Assembly: GCF_014117325.1 (NCBI RefSeq)
Contig: NZ_CP059732.1
Coordinates: 2,989,001-3,053,000 of the forward strand
Direction: 5' to 3'
DNA length: 64,000 nt
From: Spirosoma foliorum
GTDB lineage: Bacteria; Bacteroidota; Bacteroidia; Cytophagales; Spirosomataceae
Positions 11,700-46,396 of the stretch are shown in pieces. The notes under the pieces are model-generated. The model was not told the DNA's origin, searched no databases, and saw only the letters and a list, made by a program, of their open reading frames with translations. A program made the position numbers and the translations under genes. Numbering within the stretch: the first letter of the stretch is position 1; every line of letters starts with the position of its first letter.

Positions 11700-14276
11700 T
11701 TAATTACCCACCATGAACACAGCATTGCTAAACAACAATTTGCCGTTATACCAGAAACCCCGGAAAAGTGGATCGTCGGCCAGATACACGATACTTCCCC
11801 GGCCATAATTCTGAACGCCCATGAGCAGGGTATTTTTTAATTTCTCTTTGGCGTTTTTACCCGAGAAACCAGCTACGTAATTGTCGCCTTTCAGATAACC
11901 TACATTCCAGCCATCTTTCAGAAAATCGAAGTTGAACGCATTCTGAATCAGCGCGTAATATCCGCCGGTCAAGCCAAATCCCAGTGGGTGGCTCGTATCA
12001 ATATTCACTCGATAAATACTACCGGGGATATCGTCGGAAATAGCTGTCCGTTCCCGATCAGCATAGAGCTTGATTGAATCGGTTGTGTTGTCCTTTTTAG
12101 CCTTGTCTTTGTCAGCCGGTTTATCTTCCTTCTCTTTCAGCGCAAAACCATCCTTACCTGCCAAAAATGCAGCTGCCCGTTCCATGGCAATCAGCTTCCC
12201 TCCTGTCCGAACCCATTCTTTGATGGCAGTCAGAACTCGCTCATTCAGGAAGCGACCATAGTTGTAGTTGGTTGGCAGAATGAGTACATCCAGTTTGTTC
12301 CATTCAACATTGCCAAGCGTATTCATATCCAGCAATGTGATCGGGTAATTCAACTCCTGATCGAAGAAATGCCAGACTTCACCAGCCGATGGAGGTGGTG
12401 TTCCATCGCCAAGCACAACCGCTACGCGTGGAGCTTTCAGGCCAGTCACATAATCAGAGCCAAAATCAGACCCTGTCGTTACAAAGCCCGTTTGCACCGC
12501 TACAACTTCGGCACCCGCTTGTGAAACGGCCTGCATGACCACACTACCCAATCGGTCGCCAAGACGTTCATTTCCTGTTCGGGTAATGATTAACGTGCCA
12601 GATGGATACGTTTTACCTTCTACTTCAAACTGCTTTTCAGCCGCGCGGACCCGGACTTTCTGTTTGAGCAGAGCCGCCAGTGTTTGCACCGCTGGCACCG
12701 ACTGCCAGCGAACCAGATATGCGTAGGCCGAGGCTGGCACAGGGGCGGCAGCAGAAGCTGCGGGAGCCGTTGATGTTGGCGTTAGTTTAGTCGTTAGACC
12801 ATAGGTTTGCAATCCAAACGCATAGGGCAATGACCAGGCCGTAATGTCGTAAGTCGCGGAATCTTCTAATGCAGAATTTTGCTCAAACAGGATTTTGAGA
12901 AGCGTAGATTTAGGCTGATAGGCGCTAATTACGATATCTTCGGCCGCTATCGAAACCGTTTTATCCGTTTTCTGGGTGGTATAATTGAATCCACTAGCCA
13001 CCGTCTGGGCTTTACCAGCATAACCGAAACTGATTTTATTACGCTCCAGCAATTGTAGCAAAGCCTTCGACCGTCCAGCATCGCCATTTGATTTGATCAC
13101 GTAGCTCTTGTAAGCTCCTATGGGCGTATTTCGCGATTTGTCGAAGAACTGCCCAAACTCTTTCACAATTTCCGCAGGGCGGTCAGCAACCGATTCCAGG
13201 GTTGCAATACTAGCTGTATAGTGGTGATCGATTCGTTGGCGTAACGTAAGCGTATCGCCATCCGCTTTTTCAATAGCCAGACCTGCCCGACTATTGCCAC
13301 CCTGCTCATACGTCATCCCAATTGCCCCATTGTAGGTTGGGTACGTATCGCCATAACTTGGGTAGAACAAATCAAAGCGTTCGCGGGTGTAATAAAGCCA
13401 GCCATTTTTGTCGAAATAACGGCTGCAATATTCGCCAATCGTTTGCTGGAATTTCCGCTGATACGGTGTAATATCTTCGTGATAAGGTTTGGCCGATGGG
13501 GCAAAATAATAGGGACTCTCTACACCCATTTCATGGAAATCACCGTGCAGTTGAGGCATCCACTGTTGGTAAAGTGCCATTCGCTGTTGGGTAATTTCCT
13601 GTGTTTGCCAGGCCCAGTCGCGGTTTGGATCGAACAGATAGTGCGTATAACGACCACCGGGCCAGGGTTCGCTGTGTTCACGAGCCGATGGAGTTGGATT
13701 CGGATTACGTCCCAGCATCTGATTATACCAGTTCACATACCGATCATGGCCATCAGGATTCAGACCGGGATCAAGAATAACCACGGTTGAGTTCATAATC
13801 TTCTGTGAAACGGCATCTGAGGTATTTAATAATCGATACAAGACGTCCATAAACGCTTCGGAACTGACAGCCTCATTACCGTGAACGTTGTAGCTAAGCC
13901 AGGCAATTGGCGGTTGGGTAGCCGATGTTGGGCTACCTTCCATCAGGCCTATCCGTTTTAAGTTGTTGGTTCGGATTTCCTCCAGTCGGGCCATGTTGGC
14001 TTCTGAGCCAAGCGCAACAACCATAAGCTGTCGACCTTCGTAGGAGGTTCCATACGGAATCAGTTTAATCCGATTGGGAAGTTGACGGGCTACCTGTTCG
14101 GCATACGCCAATACACGATGGTGGGGAGTAAATCGATCGCCAATCTTGTAACCAAGAAACTGAGCGGGAGATAATGGCGTAGTTGATGAGGAGGAAGGCG
14201 CTTGCGCCTGAACTGACCTAGTCTGAACTGACAGCGATGCAACCGTCAGACCAGCCAGCAATAAAAGGTGTTTCAT
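11700..14276 (-). CDS. Secreted M14-family zinc carboxypeptidase
   Basis: 858 residues from the ATG at 14276; a longer frame to 14438 exists but its extra codons run over the tRNA promoter and give a non-signal sequence. MKHLLLLAGLTVASLSVQTR is a Sec signal. The zinc site is HGNE (His132, Glu135) plus a third ligand in HGDFHEMG (His248), with LDPGLNPDGHDRY between. The peptidase domain ends near residue 400; the rest includes a region resembling a class-I glutamine amidotransferase fold (KLDVLILPTNYNYG, GGKLIAMERAAAF), common in large Bacteroidota M14 enzymes. Residues around 765 are Lys/Asp-rich (KEKEDKPADKDKAKKDN). Likely periplasmic protein digestion. Confidence 0.88.
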   Translation of the reverse strand: MKHLLLLAGLTVASLSVQTRSVQAQAPSSSSTTPLSPAQFLGYKIGDRFTPHHRVLAYAEQVARQLPNRIKLIPYGTSYEGRQLMVVALGSEANMARLEEIRTNNLKRIGLMEGSPTSATQPPIAWLSYNVHGNEAVSSEAFMDVLYRLLNTSDAVSQKIMNSTVVILDPGLNPDGHDRYVNWYNQMLGRNPNPTPSAREHSEPWPGGRYTHYLFDPNRDWAWQTQEITQQRMALYQQWMPQLHGDFHEMGVESPYYFAPSAKPYHEDITPYQRKFQQTIGEYCSRYFDKNGWLYYTRERFDLFYPSYGDTYPTYNGAIGMTYEQGGNSRAGLAIEKADGDTLTLRQRIDHHYTASIATLESVADRPAEIVKEFGQFFDKSRNTPIGAYKSYVIKSNGDAGRSKALLQLLERNKISFGYAGKAQTVASGFNYTTQKTDKTVSIAAEDIVISAYQPKSTLLKILFEQNSALEDSATYDITAWSLPYAFGLQTYGLTTKLTPTSTAPAASAAAPVPASAYAYLVRWQSVPAVQTLAALLKQKVRVRAAEKQFEVEGKTYPSGTLIITRTGNERLGDRLGSVVMQAVSQAGAEVVAVQTGFVTTGSDFGSDYVTGLKAPRVAVVLGDGTPPPSAGEVWHFFDQELNYPITLLDMNTLGNVEWNKLDVLILPTNYNYGRFLNERVLTAIKEWVRTGGKLIAMERAAAFLAGKDGFALKEKEDKPADKDKAKKDNTTDSIKLYADRERTAISDDIPGSIYRVNIDTSHPLGFGLTGGYYALIQNAFNFDFLKDGWNVGYLKGDNYVAGFSGKNAKEKLKNTLLMGVQNYGRGSIVYLADDPLFRGFWYNGKLLFSNAVFMVGN

Positions 14277-14374
14277 GTATGCGATGAAAAAAAAAAATGA
14301 AAAAGCTAACCTCTTCAAAAATAGCAGTAAATCGGCCACAAACCTTTTTTTTGAAAAAATTTTAGGGGCAGGTA

Positions 14375-14404
14375 TTGCATGTAAAAAAAAACGCCTTACC
14401 TTTG
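14375..14404 (+). promoter_or_regulatory. Bacteroidota-type promoter for tRNA-Glu
   Basis: TTG at 14375-14377, exactly 19 bp, then TACCTTTG at 14397-14404: a full match to the Bacteroidota primary sigma consensus TTG-N19-TAnnTTTG. It ends 59 bp before the tRNA. Confidence 0.8.
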
Positions 14405-14463
14405 CACCACGATTCGCCACCAGGGCAGCCACAAACAAACCTGATGGGTCTTTTAAACAAGAC

Positions 14464-14535
14464 GGCCGATTCGTCTAGCGGTTAGGACATCGCCCTTTCA
14501 CGGCGGTAACACGGGTTCGATTCCCGTATCGGTCA
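14464..14535 (+). tRNA. tRNA-Glu (anticodon TTC)
   Basis: 72-nt cloverleaf. Acceptor strands GGCCGAT (14464-14470) and ATCGGTC pair over seven positions with one G-U, discriminator A at 14535. The D-loop is TAGCGGTTAGGAC, the anticodon loop CTTTCAC gives TTC, and the T arm is CGGGTTCGATTCCCG. The 3' CCA is not encoded; the sequence continues CTAA. Confidence 0.95.
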
Positions 14536-14560
14536 CTAACAAGTCACTGCGGTGACACAA

Positions 14561-14598
14561 AAAATCCCTCAAATCTGTTCTTGATTTGAGGGATTTTT
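14561..14598 (+). terminator. Rho-independent terminator after tRNA-Glu
   Basis: AAAATCCCTCAAATC and GATTTGAGGGATTTTT form a perfect stem around a 7-base loop, with a T run at the end. It starts 26 bp after the tRNA. Confidence 0.85.
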
Positions 14599-14932
14599 GT
14601 TTTCCCTACTAGTTCTAAAAATTGCGGAGGGCGATGGATGGATCAGGGATCAATCCCAAAATTTGTGGATTGGGTCAGTAGAAAAAAGAACCATCAATGT
14701 AGTAGTCTTGTGAGCTTCAGGGCTCAATCTAGTGGGCATGTAATCTTTAGATAACGTAGAGGATTAGCACCTTAGCTGGCCGATTCTAGTAGCGACCTTG
14801 AGGCTTTAAAATCAGACAATTACATCGATTATCCGGTTAATAAATTAGTGTTTGAGATTGTGATTCTACGGCTCTGTTTTTACGTGACTTTTTTTAACTC
14901 TGTCATTCCAAACAGCAAACTCCCTCTAACTC
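14599..14932. other. Non-coding stretch before the microprotein region
   Basis: About 330 bp with no convincing reading frame, RNA fold or repeat that I can see. Only short unsupported frames occur. Confidence 0.5.
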
Positions 14933-15175
14933 ATGACACTCAAACTTATTTTCCTTGGCGGAGGCAGCCTCGCTTTCGGCCTCTTCCTTCTTTATCTATT
15001 TCGAACTTTCCGTCTGAAACCGGACTGCCCGCTTTGCGGAAATCCACATCCAGACCGAAAAGCTCGTTCTAGGGTGATGAAATTAATTCCATGTAAGGCT
15101 TACCAGTGCTCAGCCTGCGGAAAACGTTTTTATCAACTAGGATGGCAAAGTCCCCAACATCCTTTTCGAGCCTAA
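14933..15175 (+). CDS. Small membrane-anchored zinc-ribbon-like protein, copy 1
   Basis: 80 residues. Residues 4-25 form one membrane segment. A cytosolic or periplasmic tail follows with CPLCGNPHPDR (Cys32, 35) and YQCSACGKRFY (Cys59, 62), a likely zinc knuckle pair; an extra Cys54 is not in the paralogue. A second copy at 16368-16613 has the same layout and conserves the CPxCGNxHPDR, MKLIPxKAYQC and CxKR(F/Y)Y blocks while the DNA has diverged, which supports real coding. I do not recognise a named family. It is the first member of the small-protein region. Confidence 0.75.
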   Translation: MTLKLIFLGGGSLAFGLFLLYLFRTFRLKPDCPLCGNPHPDRKARSRVMKLIPCKAYQCSACGKRFYQLGWQSPQHPFRA

Positions 15176-15368
15176 TTAGTAAACAAACTATGTATCCCGG
15201 TCGGTGATTACTGATCGGGATTTTTCAGGAAATACGTTGTTTAAAAAAATAATTTACCCATTGTGTGGTGCTGGATTTATTACGCCAATTAATAAATTCA
15301 GATGGGTTAGCCTAAACTCAACCGTTAATCACTAGTTCCAAGACATATAGTTAGTTGCTGTTTACACC

Positions 15369-15545
15369 ATGCAAAAAAACTTCTTACGCTTATTAAGTCT
15401 ACTTTTTTTGCTAGCTGCCATAGCCTTTTTGTTTCTGGCAGGCTTCGCTCTTTATCAGAGCAAACTATCTACGGCCTTACTCTCCTTTGGTTCTGCCATT
15501 AGCTGCACAGGGCTTGCTATTTTCCTCTCGACAAAATCGGCCTGA
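15369..15545 (+). CDS. 58-residue two-TM microprotein, KSA family copy 1
   Basis: Reads MQKNFLRLLSLLFLLAAI... and ends SAISCTGLAIFLSTKSA. Two hydrophobic segments (about residues 8-27 and 36-53) join through a short LYQSKLS turn. Two other frames in the window have exactly the same length, layout and C-terminal KSA: 16777-16953 and 46027-46203. With the latter it shares FLRxLSLxFLLxAI, a GxALY turn and SxISCT. Unknown function; probably an inner-membrane protein. Confidence 0.7.
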   Translation: MQKNFLRLLSLLFLLAAIAFLFLAGFALYQSKLSTALLSFGSAISCTGLAIFLSTKSA

Positions 15546-15618
15546 TAACTTTCTGATTATACGCTTGCAAAAATTATAACTATTTCAGTTATTTATTGTC
15601 TTAAAAGCAATATAAGTG

Positions 15619-15644
15619 TTGCAGCATAACCGTTATGGTTGCAA
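15619..15644. promoter_or_regulatory. Operator-like palindrome upstream of a microprotein
   Basis: A 26-bp near-palindrome starting TTGCAGCATAAC and ending GTTATGGTTGCAA with a CG centre. TATAAGTG on the left and ACTTATA on the right extend the symmetry. It lies 44 bp before the ATG at 15688, a good position for a repressor or activator site. No regulator can be assigned; a solo LytTR protein is encoded 2 kb downstream. Confidence 0.4.
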
Positions 15645-15687
15645 ACTTATAGGTGTTTTTACGGTCTCTTATCTATATATTTTTCGT

Positions 15688-15792
15688 ATGCCACGTCCTT
15701 CTTTGTTTAAGGCAGTTAATGCGATTACTTGGCTAAGCGTATTTCTCATCAGCGCTTTACTGGCTACTTATATTTTGTGGGCGTTATTTTAA
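15688..15792 (+). CDS. 34-residue single-TM microprotein, W family
   Basis: Reads MPRPSLFKAVNAITWLSVFL then a hydrophobic run ending YILWALF. Basic N-terminus, then a Trp at the start of one membrane helix. Similar frames of 37-40 residues occur at 17068, 18673, 19154, 20181 and 20954; all place the Trp 8-18 residues in and end in a hydrophobic LLF/LLL/LIL-type tail, except the 17068 copy, which has a polar extension. Too short for ordinary gene calling; unknown function. Confidence 0.55.
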   Translation: MPRPSLFKAVNAITWLSVFLISALLATYILWALF

Positions 15793-15884
15793 CGTTGTGG
15801 TAAATACTACAATTTTTGCCACCAACTAGATAGGTATTGTGACTTTTTTAGCAGCTCTGCATCTAAGCATAAATACCTACCGTA

Positions 15885-15992
15885 ATGAATCGCAGATCAC
15901 TACCCATTCCTGGTCCCTGGACACTTATACTGTTTATAGCCACCTCGCTTTTCTGGCTGGTAGCTGAAGAACTTTTGACACTTATTTTCTAA
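15885..15992 (+). CDS. 35-residue single-TM microprotein, LPIPGPWT family copy 1
   Basis: Reads MNRRSLPIPGPWTLILFIAT and ends EELLTLIF. Basic start, then the motif LPIPGPWT at the membrane boundary, then one hydrophobic helix. A clear paralogue on the other strand at 46295-46396 has LPIPGPWTVILLIA, with many synonymous differences in the DNA. A strong terminator hairpin follows 23 bp after the stop. Unknown function. Confidence 0.6.
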   Translation: MNRRSLPIPGPWTLILFIATSLFWLVAEELLTLIF

Positions 15993-16015
15993 AGAATCAT
16001 CGACCTATTATTATT

Positions 16016-16053
16016 AAAAAGCCCCAAAGGACAATTGTCTGTTGGGGCTTTTT
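16016..16053. terminator. Bidirectional terminator
   Basis: AAAAAGCCCCAA (16016-16027) pairs with TTGGGGCTTTTT (16042-16053) around a 14-base loop. It closes the first set of microprotein genes. Confidence 0.85.
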
Positions 16054-16367
16054 AGTGATTTTTCCCCAACTAGCCTCCTGGTCACCCATTACCAGTCCTA
16101 ACATATAGGGACGACCGTTCCTGCGAGGTTGACGTGGATTATGCAGAGCCTAATTTGTCAGTAGGTGTTGACAGATCAATGATAACATGTTTATTTCTAC
16201 CGTAAATCAATAAAACTAATCGGTTGTTATACGTTGCCCAATCATCTAAAATTTGGCAAAAGATAGAATTTTGAAAGGATTCCGTTTCAGTCTTCATAGT
16301 TATCTAAATAGTTTGCTTGATAATATTGTAGTTAATAAGCTAATTCGTCCAGTAACTCCCTATTAAC
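16054..16367. other. Non-coding spacer
   Basis: About 310 bp. No credible frame, RNA or repeat seen. The last 40 bp before 16368 are the presumed leader of the next small gene. Confidence 0.5.
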
Positions 16368-16613
16368 ATGCAACTCAAATACATAACTTTCATCGCCGTC
16401 GCTAGTATTGCCTCTATCTTGTCCCTGATTTACGTATATAAAACATTTCGTTTTTCTAAAACTTGCCCCGCTTGTGGAAATGAGCACCCCGATCGCGTAG
16501 CTCGGCCTAAGCCAATGAAGCTAATTCCGAGTAAGGCTTACCAATGTACATCCTGCCGAAAACGTTATTATCATATAAGTTTGTTTGAATCGACACGATC
16601 ATTATCTGCTTAA
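16368..16613 (+). CDS. Small membrane-anchored zinc-ribbon-like protein, copy 2
   Basis: 81 residues, paralogue of the protein at 14933-15175. Membrane segment about residues 5-24, then CPACGNEHPDR (Cys33, 36) and YQCTSCRKRYY (Cys60, 63). The shared block MKLIPxKAYQC between the two knuckles is conserved. The four cysteines common to both copies make metal binding likely. No partner or pathway can be read from the sequence. Confidence 0.75.
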   Translation: MQLKYITFIAVASIASILSLIYVYKTFRFSKTCPACGNEHPDRVARPKPMKLIPSKAYQCTSCRKRYYHISLFESTRSLSA

Positions 16614-16776
16614 AGTAAGCTACGTATTTTTACTGTTGAGCATTTATCAAATATTTTTTCCTTTTTGCGATTCAGCCCCATATCGTACAAATCAACAAAA
16701 TGGTTGTTTAGTTATTTTCACTTAGTACCGTTAAACCTATCCTGGCTATTTCATACAGCCTTATTTATCTATATTC

Positions 16777-16953
16777 ATGAAAAAAGTGATGGCTCGATCT
16801 CTATCTTTTTTATTATTACTAACCGGTCTGTTCTTGTTTGTGGGTAGTGTTTTTTATCTATATCAGCATAATACCCTTTGGGCCGTGCTTGCGTTTCTCT
16901 CTTCGCTCATCTCTACAATCGTAGGGATTGTCGTATCCTTTAAATCTGCCTAA
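16777..16953 (+). CDS. 58-residue two-TM microprotein, KSA family copy 2
   Basis: Reads MKKVMARSLSFLLLLTGLFL, then VGSVFYLYQHNT as the turn and a second helix ending VVSFKSA. Same 58-residue length, turn position and KSA end as the copies at 15369 and 46027, with a low-identity hydrophobic core. It follows the zinc-ribbon-like gene copy by about 160 bp. Unknown function. Confidence 0.6.
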   Translation: MKKVMARSLSFLLLLTGLFLFVGSVFYLYQHNTLWAVLAFLSSLISTIVGIVVSFKSA

Positions 16954-17067
16954 TCTTTCTACAACTAAATATTATCTGCATCCTATTTTTTCTATTCAGG
17001 CAACCAAAGGGAGAGTTGTTACGTATAATAGGGTATTCGTTATCCTGCCAACTTTACGACTTTGGAT

Positions 17068-17187
17068 ATGTCTGACAATAAAAATTCGTGGCTCAATGCA
17101 GTCACTTGGGTGCTGGTGTTAGTCATAGCTGGGTTAATCATGCTACTGTTGGTAAGGAGATTATTCACAGAATCCATTACCGAATGA
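17068..17187 (+). CDS. 39-residue single-TM microprotein, W family
   Basis: Reads MSDNKNSWLNAVTWVLVLVI, continues through a hydrophobic helix to VRRLF and ends TESITE. The LNAVTW start of the helix matches VNAITW in the 15688 copy. It differs from the other copies in a polar start and a polar C-terminal extension. The stop overlaps the start of the next small gene (ATGA), which suggests translational coupling. Confidence 0.5.
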   Translation: MSDNKNSWLNAVTWVLVLVIAGLIMLLLVRRLFTESITE

Positions 17188-17285
17188 AGTTTCCCAAGTT
17201 TGACTTTGTACAGTTTATTGGTGTATTGCTTATTCTACTGCTCATTCTTGGCGCTGGAGCGCTTCTGTTATGGGCAATTTCATGA
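17184..17285 (+). CDS. 33-residue single-TM microprotein overlapping the previous stop
   Basis: Reads MKFPKFDFVQFIGVLLILLL then LGAGALLLWAIS. Short amphipathic start, then one membrane helix. The ATG overlaps the preceding TGA in the arrangement ATGA. No paralogue recognised in the window; the overlap with a family member is its main support. Confidence 0.45.
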   Translation: MKFPKFDFVQFIGVLLILLLILGAGALLLWAIS

Positions 17286-17793
17286 TTACTTTTTTAGCAA
17301 TCATCTAATCTAGCCCTGGTTATTCTGCTGAGTTTTGGGCCTCTCCTACTTTATAAGATAGGGCTGTAATTATATTGCCCGAAATTTCCTTAGCTCTCTC
17401 CTCCGCCTTACGCATTACCTACAGGATTGATACGCTAGCAGAAAGTCACCAGACTAGCTAAGTAACGTTAGGTGTCCCATAAATCACTTCAATTTCCCTG
17501 ACTACTTTCTTTTCTATTTCTTAATGTTTATTATATTCGCAACACGGTACTTAATATTGATCGTTTTAAGTAAACGGTAACTTACACATGAATTACATTT
17601 CTTATTAATTGTGCCTAATTTGACATTTATTTAGCCTTGCCTGTTGGAATAACAGATCATAACACACTGAATTACAGAAATTTAACACCTAAAAATTAAT
17701 AGTTTGAATTTTACTTGAGTTCTAGTTCATTTTTATCCATTCCGTATTGATCTCTTTGTAAAAAATTTCCCATCCACTTAAGCCATTTATGTT
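17286..17793. other. Non-coding stretch upstream of the LytTR gene
   Basis: About 500 bp, AT-rich towards the right. No frame, hairpin terminator or RNA fold stands out. The part near 17740-17790 is probably the promoter and leader of the LytTR gene; CTCTTTG at 17752-17758 resembles half of a -7 element but without a good TTG at the right spacing. Confidence 0.45.
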
Positions 17794-18195
17794 ATGAAGC
17801 GATTAGCTGCTGCTCAACTTCAGCATAAGTTCGACCCAACTCAAGTTATTTATTTAACTGGGGATGTTAACTACTGCTATGTTCACTTGATCAATGGTAA
17901 AGCTATTTTATCAAGCAGAACTTTAAAATGGTACAACGATCGGTGGCCCCATTTCATTCGTATTCATAAGGCTCATCTGATTAACCCGTTGCATATTCAT
18001 AGCTGTATTGTGGTTTCTTCTATTGTTGCCCATTTGATCATGCGTAACGGAGCCCGCCTACCTATTAGCAGAAGGCGAATCAGTCCGGTTATCGATCAAT
18101 TAGGTATCAACATACCTAAAAACACTTACGCGGGGTCTTACCAGATTCAACCCGACTGGAGTACGTATATTTCGCCCCAAGCTAAGCTGGCCTAG
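17794..18195 (+). CDS. Solo LytTR DNA-binding domain protein
   Basis: 133 residues. The core is a LytTR domain: VIYLTGDVNYCYVHLINGK, then SSRTLKWYNDRW, then FIRIHKAHLINPLHI, with a later LPISRRRI. No receiver domain precedes it, so it is a stand-alone DNA-binding protein rather than a full two-component response regulator. LytTR proteins bind pairs of short imperfect direct repeats. It lies in the middle of the small-protein region and is a reasonable candidate regulator for it, but no LytTR site could be assigned. Confidence 0.85.
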   Translation: MKRLAAAQLQHKFDPTQVIYLTGDVNYCYVHLINGKAILSSRTLKWYNDRWPHFIRIHKAHLINPLHIHSCIVVSSIVAHLIMRNGARLPISRRRISPVIDQLGINIPKNTYAGSYQIQPDWSTYISPQAKLA

Positions 18196-18239
18196 GCCAA
18201 AGGCGAGTTGGCAGTAACTTTTAATCATCGCGGCATAAG

Positions 18240-18276
18240 GACCGGCTTGCTTTGTGAACTACGGAGCAAGCCGGTC
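18240..18276 (+). terminator. Strong hairpin after the LytTR gene
   Basis: GACCGGCTTGCT (18240-18251) pairs perfectly with AGCAAGCCGGTC (18265-18276). No long T run follows, so it may be a stabilising 3' hairpin or a weak terminator. Confidence 0.55.
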
Positions 18277-18672
18277 AATTGTAGCTGCTCAGCTACTTAC
18301 TGCTTATAATTTCGACCAATGGTAGTGATTGTCCCTGCACATCAATTCGGCATAAAATAGTGTCTCTTTGTAACGCGTTTCCCGTTCTCACTCCAGCAAA
18401 CGTTTATGGCTAGCCCGTTAGTGGGCACTCAGTTCAATTGGCTATATATCGCTTAAAGCCTAGCTCCCTCTCCTGGTGCTACAATAAAGTTATTCCTTGC
18501 CGCTTCTCCTAGCCTCTACTATTCTCAGGCAACACACAAGATATTCTGACCAAAATGTGACTTTACAATTTTTTTTTTGTCTTAAAATCTGACTACTGCG
18601 ATTTATCGTAAGTAAAGCGAATCTAATCCATACTCATAATCGAATTATTACTGTTCACCAATCATTACTTGT
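18277..18672. other. Non-coding spacer
   Basis: Nearly 400 bp after the hairpin with no convincing gene. A T9 tract sits at about 18571-18579. Confidence 0.45.
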
Positions 18673-18795
18673 ATGGTTACGAGTCGCGTTTGTTTAGGTT
18701 CTCTTGACCTTGTTAAGACGATTACCTGGTCGGTTGTTTTAGGAATTAGCCTTATCTGTTTAATGGGTGTTGTTTCCCTCCTCTTCCACCTATAA
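18673..18795 (+). CDS. 40-residue single-TM microprotein, W family
   Basis: Reads MVTSRVCLGSLDLVKTITWS and ends VVSLLFHL. The DLVKTITW motif before the helix matches DLVNFLTW in the 19154 copy and VNAITW in the 15688 copy. It lies 11 bp before the GFGGW-family gene at 18807, so the two are probably co-transcribed; the same order recurs at 20181/20392. Confidence 0.55.
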   Translation: MVTSRVCLGSLDLVKTITWSVVLGISLICLMGVVSLLFHL

Positions 18796-18806
18796 GCTTA
18801 CATTCC

Positions 18807-19058
18807 ATGAGATTCTATCCTAAAATTTTCAAATTTGGCCCGGGTCGTAACTGTTATACTCTACCCGTTAGTGCAACTGGCTCACTCTGGTCTGGATTTG
18901 GCGGTTGGCATTACCGTACCTGTTCGTTTGCGCTGACTCCATCCCTACACCGACGGCCCAAACAATCTCAATCAGTTTGCCAGATTATTCAACCAGGGGT
19001 ACATTTCATATCCATAGGTGAGTACTTCAACCAGTTCCAGGCAGAACAATTTATATAA
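18807..19058 (+). CDS. Small GSLWxGFGGW-family protein, copy 1
   Basis: 83 residues, no membrane segment and no signal peptide. It shares with the frame at 20392-20706 a block of about 25 residues: NCYTLPVSATGSLWSGFGGW here against YCYSVPVSCSGSLWNGFGGW there, then VCQIIQPGVHFI against VCLIIQHAINYI. The DNA of the block differs at many third positions while the protein is kept, which supports translation and selection. Unknown function. Both copies follow a W-family microprotein. Confidence 0.65.
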   Translation: MRFYPKIFKFGPGRNCYTLPVSATGSLWSGFGGWHYRTCSFALTPSLHRRPKQSQSVCQIIQPGVHFISIGEYFNQFQAEQFI

Positions 19059-19153
19059 GCCCGAGTACGTTTAGGATTGGATTAAGATAAGTAGATATAG
19101 ACCTATTTCTGTTTTTACAGAACTATATGTAACTTCTACCTTCCTAACGAACC

Positions 19154-19267
19154 ATGAATCGCCTGCAACGTTCAACCCCTTTCGATTTAGTAAACTTCTT
19201 AACCTGGCTGTTCGCTGTCACCCTTTGCCTGCTTTATGCCTATGGCCTTTTAGTGTTATTGCTGTAA
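19154..19267 (+). CDS. 37-residue single-TM microprotein, W family
   Basis: Reads MNRLQRSTPFDLVNFLTWLF and ends in a Leu-rich tail. Basic start, FDLVNFLTW, then one membrane helix. Same layout as the copies at 18673, 20181 and 20954. No partner gene follows; the next 250 bp contain an inverted repeat. Confidence 0.5.
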   Translation: MNRLQRSTPFDLVNFLTWLFAVTLCLLYAYGLLVLLL

Positions 19268-19380
19268 CCGTGCTATATCCTTGTGGATGAAAATTAGTTT
19301 CTTTAGATTCTGACTGAATATCATCCATTGGTTATCAACACAATAGCAACAAGAGAAACAAACAAGTGCTTTACCAAAGT

Positions 19381-19497
19381 AGATTTTCGGGTTCGCCCGC
19401 ACGGTTGATTCTCTCGGATTCTATTGACGGTATTCTACTGCTAATCAATGTCTAAGCCATCAATTAGAATCAACCGCGCGGGCGAACCCGAGAATCT
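19381..19497. repeat. 32-bp inverted repeat with GC-rich arms
   Basis: Arms at 19381-19412 and 19466-19497 match with two differences; the core is CGGGTTCGCCCGC and the inner end GGTTGATTCT. Partial pairing continues inward (GATTCTATTGACGG). The arms are much richer in GC than the surrounding sequence. It lies between a plus-strand microprotein and the minus-strand FKBP gene and could terminate both. Confidence 0.85.
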
Positions 19498-19524
19498 CTA
19501 GAATCTAAATTGTTAAAGCATTAG

Positions 19525-20001
19525 TTAATTGATTCCAACCAGATCAATTTTAAAGACCAGTATGGAATTAGCAGGAATATCGTTCTGCTCTTGAGAACCA
19601 TAGGCCAGACTTGGGGGTAAATAGAGCGTAATAGTGCCACCAGGTGCTACTAAAGGAATGCCTTCCTGCCAACCAAGGATAAGCTGGTTTAGGCCAAAGC
19701 TTATTCCCTCTCCACTATCAAATACTTTTCCATTAGTTAACGTACCTGTATAATTAACCGTCACATTATCGCAAATGGTTGGTTTATTCCCCGAGCCTGC
19801 CTTCTGGATACTATAATAAAATCCGCGGGTATCGGCTTTGGCAGAAATTTTATTCCCTTCGATATATCGTTTTAAAGCTGTGGACTCTTCCAGAGGTGCT
19901 TTTGTGTCAACAGCTGTTTGAGTACAAGGCTGCTTATCAGCTGATTGGCAGCTACCAACAAGTACGGACAATGCAAGCAACGCGATTTTAATTTTTTTCA
20001 T
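19525..20001 (-). CDS. FKBP-type peptidyl-prolyl isomerase lipoprotein
   Basis: 158 residues from the ATG at 20001, chosen because it starts the signal sequence MKKIKIALLALSVLVGSC; a seven-residue longer frame is less likely. Lipobox cysteine Cys18. The FKBP domain occupies about residues 75-158: VTVNYTGTLTNGKVFDSGEG, LILGWQEGIPLVAPGG, YLPPSLAYGSQ, ILVFKIDL. It should catalyse prolyl cis-trans isomerisation in folding of exported proteins, anchored to a membrane. It is the only minus-strand gene in this small-protein region. Confidence 0.88.
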   Translation of the reverse strand: MKKIKIALLALSVLVGSCQSADKQPCTQTAVDTKAPLEESTALKRYIEGNKISAKADTRGFYYSIQKAGSGNKPTICDNVTVNYTGTLTNGKVFDSGEGISFGLNQLILGWQEGIPLVAPGGTITLYLPPSLAYGSQEQNDIPANSILVFKIDLVGIN

Positions 20002-20180
20002 CAAGAGAGGCCCAGTCGGCAATTTATTTTTAATGGTACCCGAATTAATCGTTTAACGTTCTTTTAAGCTAACTTTTTTTTACAAAATGGCTCTATATTG
20101 TCCCACAGAATACCATTATATTAATTCTAAAGCCAACTCATCGTATTTTTCGTTTGTTATAGAACTGGACATATACTGCT

Positions 20181-20294
20181 ATGGCTTTTCGATTTTGCAT
20201 CACATCGCTTAACCTGCCCAAGGTGTTCATCTGGTTAAGTATGCTAGGCATTTCGCTCCTGTTCTGGAGTGTCATTATCCGGCTTCTTTTCTAA
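20181..20294 (+). CDS. 37-residue single-TM microprotein, W family
   Basis: Reads MAFRFCITSLNLPKVFIWLS and ends SVIIRLLF. Same layout as its neighbours: basic start, NLPKVFIW before one helix, LLF end. It precedes the second GFGGW-family gene by about 100 bp, repeating the gene order at 18673/18807. Confidence 0.5.
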   Translation: MAFRFCITSLNLPKVFIWLSMLGISLLFWSVIIRLLF

Positions 20295-20391
20295 GTTCTT
20301 CCCTATTTATTATTCGGCCAATCCAAACGGATAATCTTTGGCGTAAATGCACTAATCTTCTTGTGCAATTACTGCCATGATTATAAAAAAA

Positions 20392-20706
20392 ATGTACCCA
20401 CACCTGTCTGTAAGGCGTTATTGTTACTCAGTACCGGTTAGTTGTTCTGGTTCGTTATGGAATGGATTTGGCGGCTGGCTTTTTCGTGTACTCACCTTGA
20501 GTAGCTATAAACGTCACGTCAGGAAAGATCGAAAAAAATTGGTCCGTACAGTCTGTTTGATCATCCAGCATGCTATTAACTATATAGATCGTACATATCC
20601 TTCTGCCCCTGCACATCCGTGCTTAATTCAACCAATAAGCCTATTTTCTAACACCCGTCTTTTATACCCATTCACCAGACATCTTATTCGCCACTCCCGA
20701 TACTGA
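20392..20706 (+). CDS. Small GSLWxGFGGW-family protein, copy 2
   Basis: 104 residues from the ATG at 20392; an in-frame ATG at 20377 would add MIIKK. It carries YCYSVPVSCSGSLWNGFGGW followed by a basic linker (KRHVRKDRKK) and VCLIIQHAINYIDRTYP, aligned with the 18807 copy. The last ~30 residues have no counterpart there and may be a drifted tail. No membrane segment except a weak hydrophobic stretch. Unknown function. Confidence 0.6.
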   Translation: MYPHLSVRRYCYSVPVSCSGSLWNGFGGWLFRVLTLSSYKRHVRKDRKKLVRTVCLIIQHAINYIDRTYPSAPAHPCLIQPISLFSNTRLLYPFTRHLIRHSRY

Positions 20707-20953
20707 GCCTATCCATCGACTGAGAATAAAAGATCTTTGCGTGTTTAGCAGGCTATTGAAGCTGTTTTTTAAGCATGATTTCTTTATTTTTCACTTTTTC
20801 TGAAAGTCTGAACCAGCATATTAGCCATTGACTATCAATAGACTAATCTCCTACCAAGGCATCTTCTGGCGTATATAACCAAGCATTATTAGCTAAACCA
20901 AAGTTGTTGGCATTAGAATTGCTCTGATCTCATGATATCGATCTTGCTTTATC

Positions 20954-21067
20954 ATGACTATTCGCATACGCATTACTTATTCTAACATTATTAGTGCTGC
21001 TATTTGGTTAGGTATGCTGGCTTTTTCTATTGCCTGCTGGGCTGGGATTATGCACCTTATACTTTAG
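20954..21067 (+). CDS. 37-residue single-TM microprotein, W family
   Basis: Reads MTIRIRITYSNIISAAIWLG and ends GIMHLIL. Basic, beta-like start, Trp at the helix boundary, one hydrophobic helix. It is the last of six such frames in about 5.4 kb. A longer overlapping frame (21004-21252) has no paralogue and I do not accept it. Confidence 0.5.
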   Translation: MTIRIRITYSNIISAAIWLGMLAFSIACWAGIMHLIL

Positions 21068-21370
21068 GCTATCCCTTACCGAGACTTGACTCCTGTTATT
21101 TGTCAGCGTTTGCTCTTACTAACGCTTATCTGATCAAGCATCCTATTGATTTGCCTTTTACTTGGGCAATTGATTTCTTCTTTAAGCTTTATATAGCTAA
21201 ATTATATCAGTCTATTCCCGAAGCAAGCCATCTGCCATATAGGTATACGTAAATGGATTAACCATTTCCTGGCTGAGGCTATTTACCCGAAAAAATTCAC
21301 CAAAATCCGCGACAGGGCGCATTATCTGTTGCTGCCTACAACAGTTGATTAATTGCACTTACAAGATTTT

Positions 21371-21655
21371 CTAGTTCCAGCGAGGATTGGTCAGGATAAG
21401 TATCAAGAAGAAAAGCCCGCCTAATAAGCCCGGTACTACCAAGATAGCCAGCAAAATTTTAGCTCCTGTTATATGCTGATGCGTATATAACCAATAGCTA
21501 CCTCCCAGAACAGCCCCTAATGCAGCCAGTATAAAAAACCACATGGCTCCATTGAACGAGGCTATACTACCGTCGGCGATACCAACAAAAAAGAAGTAGA
21601 AAAATACCAGAGCAATCAACGCATCAATTGCCCATAAAATCCAGAATAGATTCAT
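21371..21655 (-). CDS. Small three-TM membrane protein
   Basis: 94 residues. Hydrophobic segments at about 2-26, 34-56 and 65-90. It starts MNLFWILWAIDALIALVFFY and ends in the polar LTNPRWN. No catalytic motif and no family I can name with certainty; similar small proteins are common in Cytophagales. It stands alone, about 200 bp downstream of hemF on the same strand. Confidence 0.7.
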   Translation of the reverse strand: MNLFWILWAIDALIALVFFYFFFVGIADGSIASFNGAMWFFILAALGAVLGGSYWLYTHQHITGAKILLAILVVPGLLGGLFFLILILTNPRWN

Positions 21656-21852
21656 ACAGGTAAGTTGTTTTGAGCCAATAAAGCACTATTTTCAGAACAA
21701 CTAGCTACTGTTCGGGGAACCATCACTTGGGCCTTCGAACAGTAGACTCACAAAGCGTTAGCAGGGATAGAGCAAACAGCCAACAGACTTATTTACCTGG
21801 CTCTATCTCACCTCTGGTAAAGGTCGATAAAAAGTGAAATTCCGATACCAAC

Positions 21853-22767
21853 TTAAAGCCAGTTAATCCCTTTTTTAAGGAATTGTCCTGTCTGCTCTTC
21901 TTTGCTACCTGCCTCTGGTTTGAAATCGTAAATCCAATTGGCTTGCGGGGGCATACTCATTAAAATTGACTCCGTACGCCCATTTGTTTCGAGGCCAAAC
22001 TTAGTGCCCCGATCCCATACCAGATTAAATTCAACGTATCGGCCCCGACGTAATAACTGCCAGTTTTTTTCGTGCTCACCAAATGGCAAATCACGATTCT
22101 GCTTCATAAAATGGGTGTATATAGGCGCAAAAGAATTACCTACACCCTGTACAAAGGAGAACAAATCAGCTTTGTGCGAAGCATCTGTCGGTTTGAGATA
22201 ATCAAAGAAAATACCGCCAATTCCTCGCGTTTCCTGCCGATGAGGAATGTAAAAATAATCATCAGCCCAGGCTTTAAATTTATCGTAATAACCTGCGTCA
22301 TGATCGTTACAGACATTTTTAAGCTGTTGATGAAACCAGCGAGCATCATCTTCAACTACATAATGGGGCGTAAGGTCGATACCACCACCAAACCAGCAGT
22401 GACCGGTACTCATCTCAAAATACCGAACATTCATGTGAATAATAGGGACCATGGGGCTACGCGGATGCAATACGATGGAAACGCCAGTAGCATAAAAATC
22501 AGCGGGCTCCGTGAGTTGCAGCGTGCGTAAAGTAGCTTCTGTCGCTTCACCATAAACAGCTGAAAACCCAACGCCCCCTTTTTCAATAACATTGCCTCCC
22601 GTTATTGTCCGAGAACGGCCTCCCCCTCCACCAGGGCGCTCCCAATTATCTTCGTGAAATCGCCCTGCCTCATCGACTTCTTCAAGCGACTGACAGATGC
22701 GATCCTGTAAACTTTTAAAAAAATCAGTAATTATCTCTTTTGTAATTTCTTGCTCCGAGGTCATCAT
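21853..22767 (-). CDS. hemF: Aerobic coproporphyrinogen-III oxidase
   Basis: 304 residues, full length for HemF. The signature WFGGGIDLTP is at 125-134, and the conserved histidines are in VLHPRSPMVPIIHMN (His101, His111). It performs the O2-dependent oxidative decarboxylation of coproporphyrinogen III to protoporphyrinogen IX in heme synthesis, as a soluble dimer. Two in-frame ATGs start the gene (MMTSEQ); I keep the first. A Bacteroidota-type -7 element, TATCTTTG, lies only 5 bp before the start, so the mRNA could be leaderless or nearly so. Confidence 0.93.
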   Translation of the reverse strand: MMTSEQEITKEIITDFFKSLQDRICQSLEEVDEAGRFHEDNWERPGGGGGRSRTITGGNVIEKGGVGFSAVYGEATEATLRTLQLTEPADFYATGVSIVLHPRSPMVPIIHMNVRYFEMSTGHCWFGGGIDLTPHYVVEDDARWFHQQLKNVCNDHDAGYYDKFKAWADDYFYIPHRQETRGIGGIFFDYLKPTDASHKADLFSFVQGVGNSFAPIYTHFMKQNRDLPFGEHEKNWQLLRRGRYVEFNLVWDRGTKFGLETNGRTESILMSMPPQANWIYDFKPEAGSKEEQTGQFLKKGINWL

Positions 22768-34931: not shown

Positions 34932-34941
34932 GTTCTTTTTG

Positions 34942-35311
34942 TGGAGACGGAGGGATTTGAACCCTCGTCCAGTCAAGGAAACCAACGCGCTTTCTACATG
35001 CTTAGGTACACTTAGGATTGTCGGGAATCGGCCCGGTGTGTACCAGACCAAGCTTCATCCGTAGGTGCTTTTGTCTCGTCTGTTGTCAACACCATTATCC
35101 AGACCAGCGCTGCGAGTCGATGCCTCCTGATCCAGCCAGCAGCACGTAGGCCGGGGAGACAATGGCTATTGCTTAATCCTCCGGATTAGGCAGCCATGGC
35201 GTAGTTATATTCGCCAGTTATTGTTTTGACGATTTGTTTGGGCGGGAAATACCGTCAACTCCCGGCATGCTTACACGCGACCTCAGCAAGCTGTCAATTC
35301 CAGTCGCCCCC
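34942..35311 (-). ncRNA. ssrA: Transfer-messenger RNA (tmRNA)
   Basis: 370 nt. The 5' end GGGGGCG (35311-35305) pairs with the 3' end CGTCTCC (34949-34943) as a seven-pair acceptor stem, discriminator A at 34942; CCA is not encoded. The T arm reads GGGTTCAAATCCC and the D-like part GACTGGAATTGACAGC. The tag reading frame (35215-35186) encodes GEYNYAMAA then TAA, from resume codon GGC, and agrees with the Bacteroidota pattern G-E-x-x-Y-A-x-A-A. It rescues stalled ribosomes with SmpB and marks the peptide for proteolysis. A terminator follows. The AT-rich block lies directly downstream of its 3' end, a common integration site for islands. Confidence 0.95.
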
Positions 35312-46026: not shown

Positions 46027-46203
46027 TTAAGCCGACTTCATTGATAAGGCCGTTCCGATGAGTGTACAACTGATTGACGAAACAAAGCAAAGAGAAGCAA
46101 GTAATAGATTGCCGCTATAAAGCGCATAGCCAGAAAGGCCGAGAAGCGAAATGGCAAAAAGCAGAAAAATAAGAGATAGGAATCTTAACAGCTTGTTTTT
46201 CAT
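46027..46203 (-). CDS. 58-residue two-TM microprotein, KSA family copy 3
   Basis: From the ATG at 46203 the frame reads MKNKLLRFLSLIFLLFAISL, a GYALYSGN turn, and a second helix with SSISCTLIGTALSMKSA. Same 58-residue length, turn and KSA end as the copies at 15369 and 16777, here 30 kb away on the opposite strand. With the 33-residue gene just upstream it repeats a pairing of two families also present near 15.4-15.9 kb. Confidence 0.75.
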   Translation of the reverse strand: MKNKLLRFLSLIFLLFAISLLGLSGYALYSGNLLLASLCFVSSISCTLIGTALSMKSA

Positions 46204-46294: not shown

Positions 46295-46396
46295 CTACGT
46301 TAAAATTGCCCTGATTACCAAGCAAACCAGTGCTGCAGCAATCAAAAGAATGACTGTCCAGGGACCAGGAATCGGAAGCATTGTTTTACGTTTCAT
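46295..46396 (-). CDS. 33-residue single-TM microprotein, LPIPGPWT family copy 2
   Basis: Reads MKRKTMLPIPGPWTVILLIA then AALVCLVIRAILT. Basic start, LPIPGPWT at the membrane boundary, one helix. Paralogue of the frame at 15885. It lies 91 bp upstream of the KSA-family gene on the same strand. Confidence 0.65.
   Translation of the reverse strand: MKRKTMLPIPGPWTVILLIAAALVCLVIRAILT

Follow-up and report, generated by a model that had tools for sequence, protein, structure and literature searches.

Annotation of small membrane proteins is difficult, and most of those known come from a few model bacteria. The stress-induced ones of enterobacteria, such as AcrZ, MgtS and CydX, are short, have one transmembrane (TM) helix, are in some cases driven by stress promoters and act on larger membrane complexes. 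Type I toxins such as TisB, Ldr and Hok are short hydrophobic paralogues that occur in multiple copies. We analyzed a 64,000-nucleotide (nt) stretch of Spirosoma foliorum (the window; coordinates 2989001-3053000 of the 8.85-Mb genome), in which the region between tRNA-Glu and hemF holds 14 short plus-strand microprotein frames, the gene of a solo LytTR regulator (R) and a minus-strand gene for an FKBP-type isomerase. The regulators of the LytTR Regulatory Systems HdrRM and BrsRM of Streptococcus mutans likewise lack a receiver and occur with membrane proteins (PMC6193735).

The frames comprise two of type A, two B, six C, one D, one D2 and two E. Across Spirosoma genomes, members of families A, B, C, D and E and the regulator R are found side by side at many sites, in sets whose composition varies. 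We propose, with a probability of about 0.4, that the array encodes lineage-specific, partly co-regulated inner-membrane microproteins that may serve as stress or signalling effectors.

Coding status of the short frames

The original prediction had placed at least 12 short plus-strand frames around a solo LytTR gene between tRNA-Glu and hemF. Our count of 14 confirms this. The array, its borders and two further family members in the window are as follows (aa, amino acids).

14464-14536: tRNA-Glu, left border of the region
14933..15175, plus strand: A1, 80 aa, N-terminal TM helix and CPxC...CxxC zinc ribbon
15369..15545, plus strand: B1, 58 aa, two TM helices, C-terminal KSA; starts 193 nt past A1
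15688..15792, plus strand: C1, 34 aa, single-TM 'TW' protein
15885..15992, plus strand: D1, 35 aa, single-TM LPIPGPWT protein
16368..16613, plus strand: A2, 81 aa, TM zinc ribbon; 49% identity to A1
16777..16953, plus strand: B2, 58 aa, two TM helices; 163 nt past A2; 38% identity between B1 and B2
17068..17187, plus strand: C2, 39 aa, single TM helix
17184..17285, plus strand: D2, 33 aa, single TM helix; ATGA overlap with C2; relatives in loci L041 and L051
17794..18195, plus strand: R, 133 aa, solo LytTR DNA-binding regulator without a receiver domain
18673..18795, plus strand: C3, 40 aa, single TM helix
18807..19058, plus strand: E1, 83 aa, GFGGW protein; 11 nt past C3
19154..19267, plus strand: C4, 37 aa, single TM helix; cut short in L051
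19525..19998, minus strand: FKBP-type isomerase, Pfam FKBP_C 9e-20
20181..20294, plus strand: C5, 37 aa, single TM helix
20377..20706, plus strand: E2, 109 aa from its ATG, GFGGW protein
20954..21067, plus strand: C6, 37 aa, single TM helix
Right of C6 and ahead of hemF, minus strand: 94-aa hydrophobic protein
21853-22767, minus strand: hemF, recognised by eye
46027..46203, minus strand: B3, a further B protein, outside the 14933-21067 range
46295..46396, minus strand: D3, a further D protein, preceding B3

The left part, with the order A-B-C-D and then A-B-C-D2, has the appearance of a duplication. Right of R follow C3-E1, C4, FKBP on the opposite strand, C5, E2 and C6. The ATGA overlap that had been predicted is present, between D2 and the preceding C2.

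R and six of the 14 frames (C3, C4, C5, C6, E1 and E2) have positionally conserved orthologues in other species. Their pairwise ratios of nonsynonymous to synonymous substitution rates (dN/dS) were 0.11-0.22 for C3, 0.08-0.12 for C4, 0.12-0.18 for C5, 0.07-0.19 for C6, 0.02-0.16 for E1 and 0.03-0.07 for R; FKBP gave 0.08-0.17. For E2, dS was saturated, yet the proportion of nonsynonymous differences (pN, 0.34) was far under that of synonymous differences (pS, 0.90). The same held for F, a D-like frame of the relatives, with saturated dS and a pN of 0.10 against a pS of 0.85. In a six-frame control, the true frame had the lowest pN/pS in all seven usable ungapped pairs (one each for C3, C4, C5 and E1, two for C6 and one for F of the relatives). 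The C orthologues are 55-84% identical and other C paralogues are 21-35% identical to C1, which indicates that each C copy is kept separately. We regard it as practically certain that C3-C6, E1, E2 and R are genes.

The other eight frames are supported by homologues at other places; no same-place orthologue was seen for A1, B1, C1 and D1. Among relatives, dN/dS was 0.07 for D2, 0.10 for A3, 0.08 for an A left of R and 0.21 for a 43-aa frame left of R, and the locus pair L026/L027 gave 0.34 for A and 0.18 for B. In L051, a frame to the left of R shares 47% identity with D2. The dN/dS comparison of window paralogues, which had been suggested as a check, gave values of 0.14-0.39 (A1/A2 0.25, B1/B2 0.39, C5/C6 0.30, D1/D3 0.14 and B1/B3 0.17) at a pS of 0.67-0.72, near saturation, and E1/E2 was saturated. 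Judged from sequence, these remaining frames are very likely genes as well.

Homologues, purifying selection and the frame control thus bear out the expectation of real paralogous microprotein genes. Homologues in relatives, also expected, were found in Spirosoma, with same-place orthologues only for the six frames and R named above. The claim that standard gene callers would miss these genes holds in part: the protein database contains five relatives of E and 12 of A, several of them named hypothetical protein, and a search with B returned only the window's own protein.

LytTR and FKBP had been named as the only known families, and among the proteins scanned (a set without D2) no others reached the curated cut-offs of Pfam or NCBIfam. 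R matches Pfam LytTR (PF04397) at 48.4 bits, with a cut-off of 22.6. It lacks an N-terminal receiver: Pfam gives LytTR only, and the NCBIfam response-regulator models match through the C-terminal part. A stayed below the cut-offs (both window copies against every Pfam family, and A1 against the NCBIfam families), with sub-cut-off matches to the zinc ribbons Zn_ribbon_8 and Zn_ribbon_IS1595 of Pfam and to the NCBIfam FmdB ribbon. PHROGs sets no cut-off; there, A matches a family of unknown function (E-value 8.5e-4) and R another (E-value 8e-8). None of eight proteins matched the phage-defence models of PADLOC.

Four cysteines of A (C32, C35, C59 and C62) are invariant in a 32-row alignment and form two CxxC zinc-binding pairs. 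The AlphaFold2 (AF2) model of A has a helix at residues 2-25 and then a small beta ribbon, with a mean predicted local distance difference test (pLDDT) score of 83. Of 40 A proteins, 36 have their positive residues C-terminal to the helix, and of 24 D proteins, 20 have them N-terminal to it. C proteins have one helix and a Trp in at least 90% of 25 aligned members. The signature of E is GSLWxGFGGW, and no clear TM helix was seen in the E frames. An AA C-terminus occurs in nine of 23 E proteins, against three of 245 large open reading frames (ORFs); the nine come from L115, L117, L119, L120, L124-L127 and L129, and window E1 and E2 end otherwise. A transfer-messenger RNA (tmRNA) at window positions 34941-35311 encodes the tag GEYNYAMAA, ending AMAA. 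The AA ends of E resemble the end of this tag, which would fit rapid turnover of those E proteins.

Co-occurrence and distribution of the families

Whole-genome searches yielded 277 elements, with R counted at ≥170 bits, a cut-off set after the list was seen. Outside the three main clusters (the window, KCTC 42546 and S. telluris), 114 of 244 elements lay ≤2 kb from another family. Uniform random placement within each genome gave a mean of 2.0 and a maximum of 11 in 2000 trials; this null takes no account of the tendency of small genes to lie in gene-poor places, and it counts each related species as an independent case. The gap is nevertheless wide. By family, 29 of 86 A, 18 of 18 B, 16 of 38 C, 22 of 50 D, 19 of 25 E and 10 of 27 R elements were ≤2 kb from another family.

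Neighbouring members are often closely spaced. A and B share a 4-nt ATGA overlap in four of nine A-B neighbours (L021, L026, L027 and L028), C and E are 11-12 nt apart in five of nine pairs (window, L029, L041, L051 and L113), and E precedes D by 5-17 nt in four of six pairs (L115, L119, L120 and L124). Relatives of R that are 61-71% identical to it adjoin E, C, D or A in L111, L116, L119 and L123, and the R copies of the main clusters are 83% identical to R. The families and R likely form one functional system.

To the right of R, the array has counterparts, altered by losses and insertions, in Spirosoma sp. KCTC 42546 (L041) and S. telluris HMF3257 (L051), and one that is split in two in S. 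arboris HMF4905 (L113 and L114). L041 carries C3-E1, C4, FKBP, F, C5, D2, C6, an extra A on the hemF side and hemF; it is without E2, and its R lies 4.6 kb off, with inserted genes between. L051 has R, a B, C3-E1, a short C4, FKBP, F, C5, E2, D2, C6, an extra A and the 94-aa gene. This locus reaches 3.8 kb further and gave no match to hemF. Left of R, L051 carries three frames: an A with 33% identity to A2, one of 43 aa with 37% identity to C2 and one of 35 aa with 47% identity to D2. The S. arboris pieces are on two contigs, away from the contig ends: L113 holds A, a 43-aa frame, R, C3, E1 and C4, and L114 holds F, C5, E2, C6 and the 94-aa gene. The C-E-FKBP gene order is kept in two species, and hemF in one of those; the FKBP gene, on the opposite strand, is a conserved neighbour of the array.

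In two species a block is inserted between R and C3 (L041 11596-14927 and L113 3547-8376), in which we recognised by eye a LytS/LytR-like pair among other genes. L071 (3981-4202, another genus) and L084 (3697-3918, Spirosoma sp. SC4-14) each have a lone A gene at a distance of one gene from a hemF-like gene. By eye, this suggests that a single A gene at this place is perhaps the ancestral state.

The families are of narrow distribution, with D in Spirosoma only and E likewise apart from one weak match. Among 36 Spirosoma genomes, A occurs in 31, C in 21, D in 22, B in seven and E in six, the sixth E genome being a weak match (E-value 1.7e-4). S. arboris shows an expansion, with 15 E, 12 D and 11 A matches. 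In a family sample of 150 genomes, A was found in 56 (13 of 36 genera) and D in 10, all Spirosoma. In an order sample of 291 genomes, E was found in two, our own genome and one weak match (E-value 4.5e-4); no other E-bearing Spirosoma matched, so these were apparently absent from that draw. Matches to C outside Spirosoma were weak (eight genomes, best 0.009), and the genome searches with B covered Spirosoma. The five database relatives of E are three named Spirosoma, one unnamed and one without a source. Across 182 kb of 20 fetched A loci (17 from other genera and three from Spirosoma), the C, D and E profiles had no match and the B profile two weak ones (E-values 0.003 and 0.007).

Two non-coding features also lie within the array.

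16010..16059, plus strand: hairpin, an inverted repeat 3' of the A1-B1-C1-D1 group, terminator-like by eye
19381-19497: palindrome between C4 and FKBP, with 32-nt arms that are 94% complementary and a 53-nt spacer

A REP-like (repetitive extragenic palindromic) origin of the palindrome was rejected, as its 12-base core occurs in six of 172 loci, all overlapping the same place.

Promoter-like element and proposed reading

Upstream sequences revealed a bipartite element, GTGACYTT-N14/15-TCYNA, before a minority of A, C and D genes. The copies listed for the window are as follows.

14884..14911, plus strand: GTGACTTTTTTTAACTCTGTCATTCCAA, 21 nt upstream of the A1 start codon
15839..15866, plus strand: GTGACTTTTTTAGCAGCTCTGCATCTAA, 18 nt upstream of the D1 start
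18557..18584, plus strand: GTGACTTTACAATTTTTTTTTTGTCTTA, before C3; conserved in L041, L051 and L113
46420..46447, minus strand: GTGACTTTTTAGGATTCGAATTGTCTGA, before D3

A strict pattern (14-16 nt gap) matched 12 times in 531,507 bases, made up of 48 stretches picked for holding the families, and all 12 matches precede an A, C or D gene. Five of six strict A and D sites have 17-23 nt between the end of the element and the start codon, and the sixth, in L125, has 43 nt; L023, where the frame scores as D and looks C-like, is not among the six. Before C3 the distance is 88 nt. K-mer enrichment upstream returned mostly AT-rich words, and GTGACTT was notable only together with its partner box. In form, the element is similar to sigma-E-type promoters, whose consensus is GGAACTT-N16-TCTGA. 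The flavobacterial motif for extracytoplasmic function (ECF) sigma factors carries a CGT box, unlike this element (PMC9723704).

Just before several A starts there is also a GTAACTCCCTC-like stretch (window 14917-14932 and 16352-16367). Allowing one mismatch, GTAACTCC occurs in 13 of 78 family upstream regions and two of 160 controls. The stretch ahead of the A genes is possibly a translation signal.

In the reading that we propose, the promoter-like element would be read by an ECF-type (sigma-E-like) sigma factor upon envelope stress, and R would tune the local gene copies. D and probably C would be single helices with the N-terminus inside, B a two-helix hairpin in the membrane, and A a helix that holds a zinc ribbon at the cytoplasmic face. 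The microproteins may bind and adjust larger inner-membrane complexes, each paralogue with its own partner, and E could be soluble, in part short-lived, and a partner of C or D. That the region may encode a system for membrane stress or signalling had been suggested from the start; the promoter-like element and the co-travelling LytTR regulator are consistent with such a possible system. More tentatively, the five families and the solo LytTR might be a genus-specific modular toolkit, re-assorted as cassettes and partly wired by a shared alternative promoter type. It would be a new multi-component inner-membrane stress or signalling system in which most components are proteins no longer than about 110 residues.

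Several points weigh against this reading, beginning with the limits given above on the choice of the 48 stretches, the placement null and the R cut-off. For the element, nine of the 12 strict sites were already known when the pattern was written; the new independent ones are L023 and L127, and L113 is the C3 orthologue. A looser pattern gave 18 matches in the same bases, with only the same 12 before family genes. A weight matrix trained on seven sites and tested on 128 untrained members and 241 upstream regions of large ORFs scored ≥14 in nine members (eight sites, of which only L050 and L022 were unseen before) and no control, at a cut chosen after the scores were seen. At set cuts the excess shrinks, to 14/128 against 6/241 at ≥10 and 31/128 against 19/241 at ≥7. 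At the loosest cuts the counts are 53/128 against 54/241 at ≥5 (41% and 22%) and 64/128 against 79/241 at ≥4 (50% and 33%). The upstream regions of members are richer in AT (61.5 against 57.6%), which may account for the excess at loose cuts. Four whole genomes hold 28 pattern matches, against 33 for a reversed control; 11 of the 28 precede microproteins (five of nine in the window's own genome). Since strict matches lie before family genes but show no genome-wide excess, the element is informative by position and not by number. Most family members have no recognisable copy, and no ECF gene was linked to the element. As to the proteins, the charge cue of C is weak (positive residues before the helix in 14 and after it in four of 33), the AF2 model of E is too poor for use as a fold (pLDDT 46), and in the window the A and B genes are separated by 163 and 193 nt instead of overlapping. 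The association count includes nine elements of the S. arboris half-clusters, the subtraction of which leaves 105 of 235.

Alternative explanations and known systems

The alternative that survives best, which we still consider unlikely, is that the one- and two-TM proteins are type I or holin-like toxins acting in addiction, programmed arrest or competition, with E or A as partners or antitoxins. Small toxins had also been raised in the original prediction. Size, hydrophobicity and multiple paralogues fit, and so do the dispersal in changing sets, the E genes placed shortly before D and the AA ends of E, which are like proteolysis tags. A known example is TimP of Salmonella, a toxic small membrane protein that a small RNA represses (PMC7667032). 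However, the 17-23 nt between element and start at most of the strict A and D sites leave little space for a structured leader (C3 has 88 nt), and the five Rfam matches in 13800-22500 include no known antitoxin family. The C paralogues are separately conserved, and the synonymous divergence of the C genes is about that of FKBP and gives no sign of antisense RNA over the coding parts.

Less likely still is a LytTR circuit in which one or more small membrane proteins hold R inactive and its release switches on the set. R consists of the LytTR domain only and travels with membrane proteins, and a LytTR regulator with a membrane inhibitor is a described architecture (PMC6193735). Yet R is separated by 508 nt from D2 and by 477 nt from C3, so an operon with R is unlikely, and of the 27 R copies found elsewhere than in the main clusters, 17 have no gene of the other families at ≤2 kb. 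Upstream of R, the window has LytTR-type direct repeats (9 of 10 positions matching, 12-nt spacing; 6 of 200 shuffles equal), but nothing comparable was found before R in L041, L051, L113 and L116. No repeat pattern that could mark LytTR binding sites was common to all five tested R copies. In L051 and L113 only, visual inspection shows an inverted repeat, GGTAACTTA...TAAGTTACC, ahead of R.

We find it doubtful, and lower again in probability, that these are selfish or mobile microgene cassettes that have no host role and are spread by duplication or mobile elements. Copy number is uneven, from the 15 E matches of S. arboris to none in 30 of 36 Spirosoma genomes, the gene order is shuffled, integrase-like genes were recognised by eye near L022 and L128, and one E-D pair lies within a contig catalogued as viral. 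That contig was rejected as an independent occurrence, being 100% identical to the S. arboris region. Purifying selection and the shared gene order in the main cluster speak against such cassettes, and no common terminal repeats, transposase or recombinase were noticed, although no systematic search was made. Chance frames in a non-coding stretch have next to no probability: short frames are common (79 ORFs of at least 28 aa overlap window 14000-22500), but conservation, dN/dS and the frame control counter this explanation and refute it for C3-C6, E1 and R, as does a pN far under pS for E2.

The region offers an experimental handle on responses built from microproteins, with one 6-kb array, one regulator and defined orthologues. 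Several families become visible through conservation alone, and they are tied to one regulator and, in part, to one promoter-like element; an apparently long intergenic region in Spirosoma can be gene-dense. In the open-access literature on Spirosoma small proteins or Spirosoma LytTR, we found nothing on this system.

The locus differs from each of the described systems. The LytTR Regulatory Systems have one membrane inhibitor, encoded in the operon of the regulator, and direct repeats spaced 11-13 nt apart ahead of the regulator promoter (PMC6193735), whereas this array has many tiny membrane proteins, gene gaps that make a shared operon unlikely, and LytTR-type direct repeats before R that were seen in the window only and not in four relatives. 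Compared with type I toxins, it has no recognised known antitoxin RNA, its paralogues are individually conserved, and the distance from element to start is short before A and D. A shares two CxxC pairs with the zinc ribbons of Pfam and NCBIfam and differs from them by the TM helix in front and the sub-cut-off score. Unlike proteins of the AcrZ, MgtS and CydX type, the microproteins scanned have no match above a curated cut-off in the family libraries and form paralogous families in arrays, together with a regulator and a zinc-ribbon partner. Regulated small membrane proteins as a kind are already known; what is new here is the families and their modular association.

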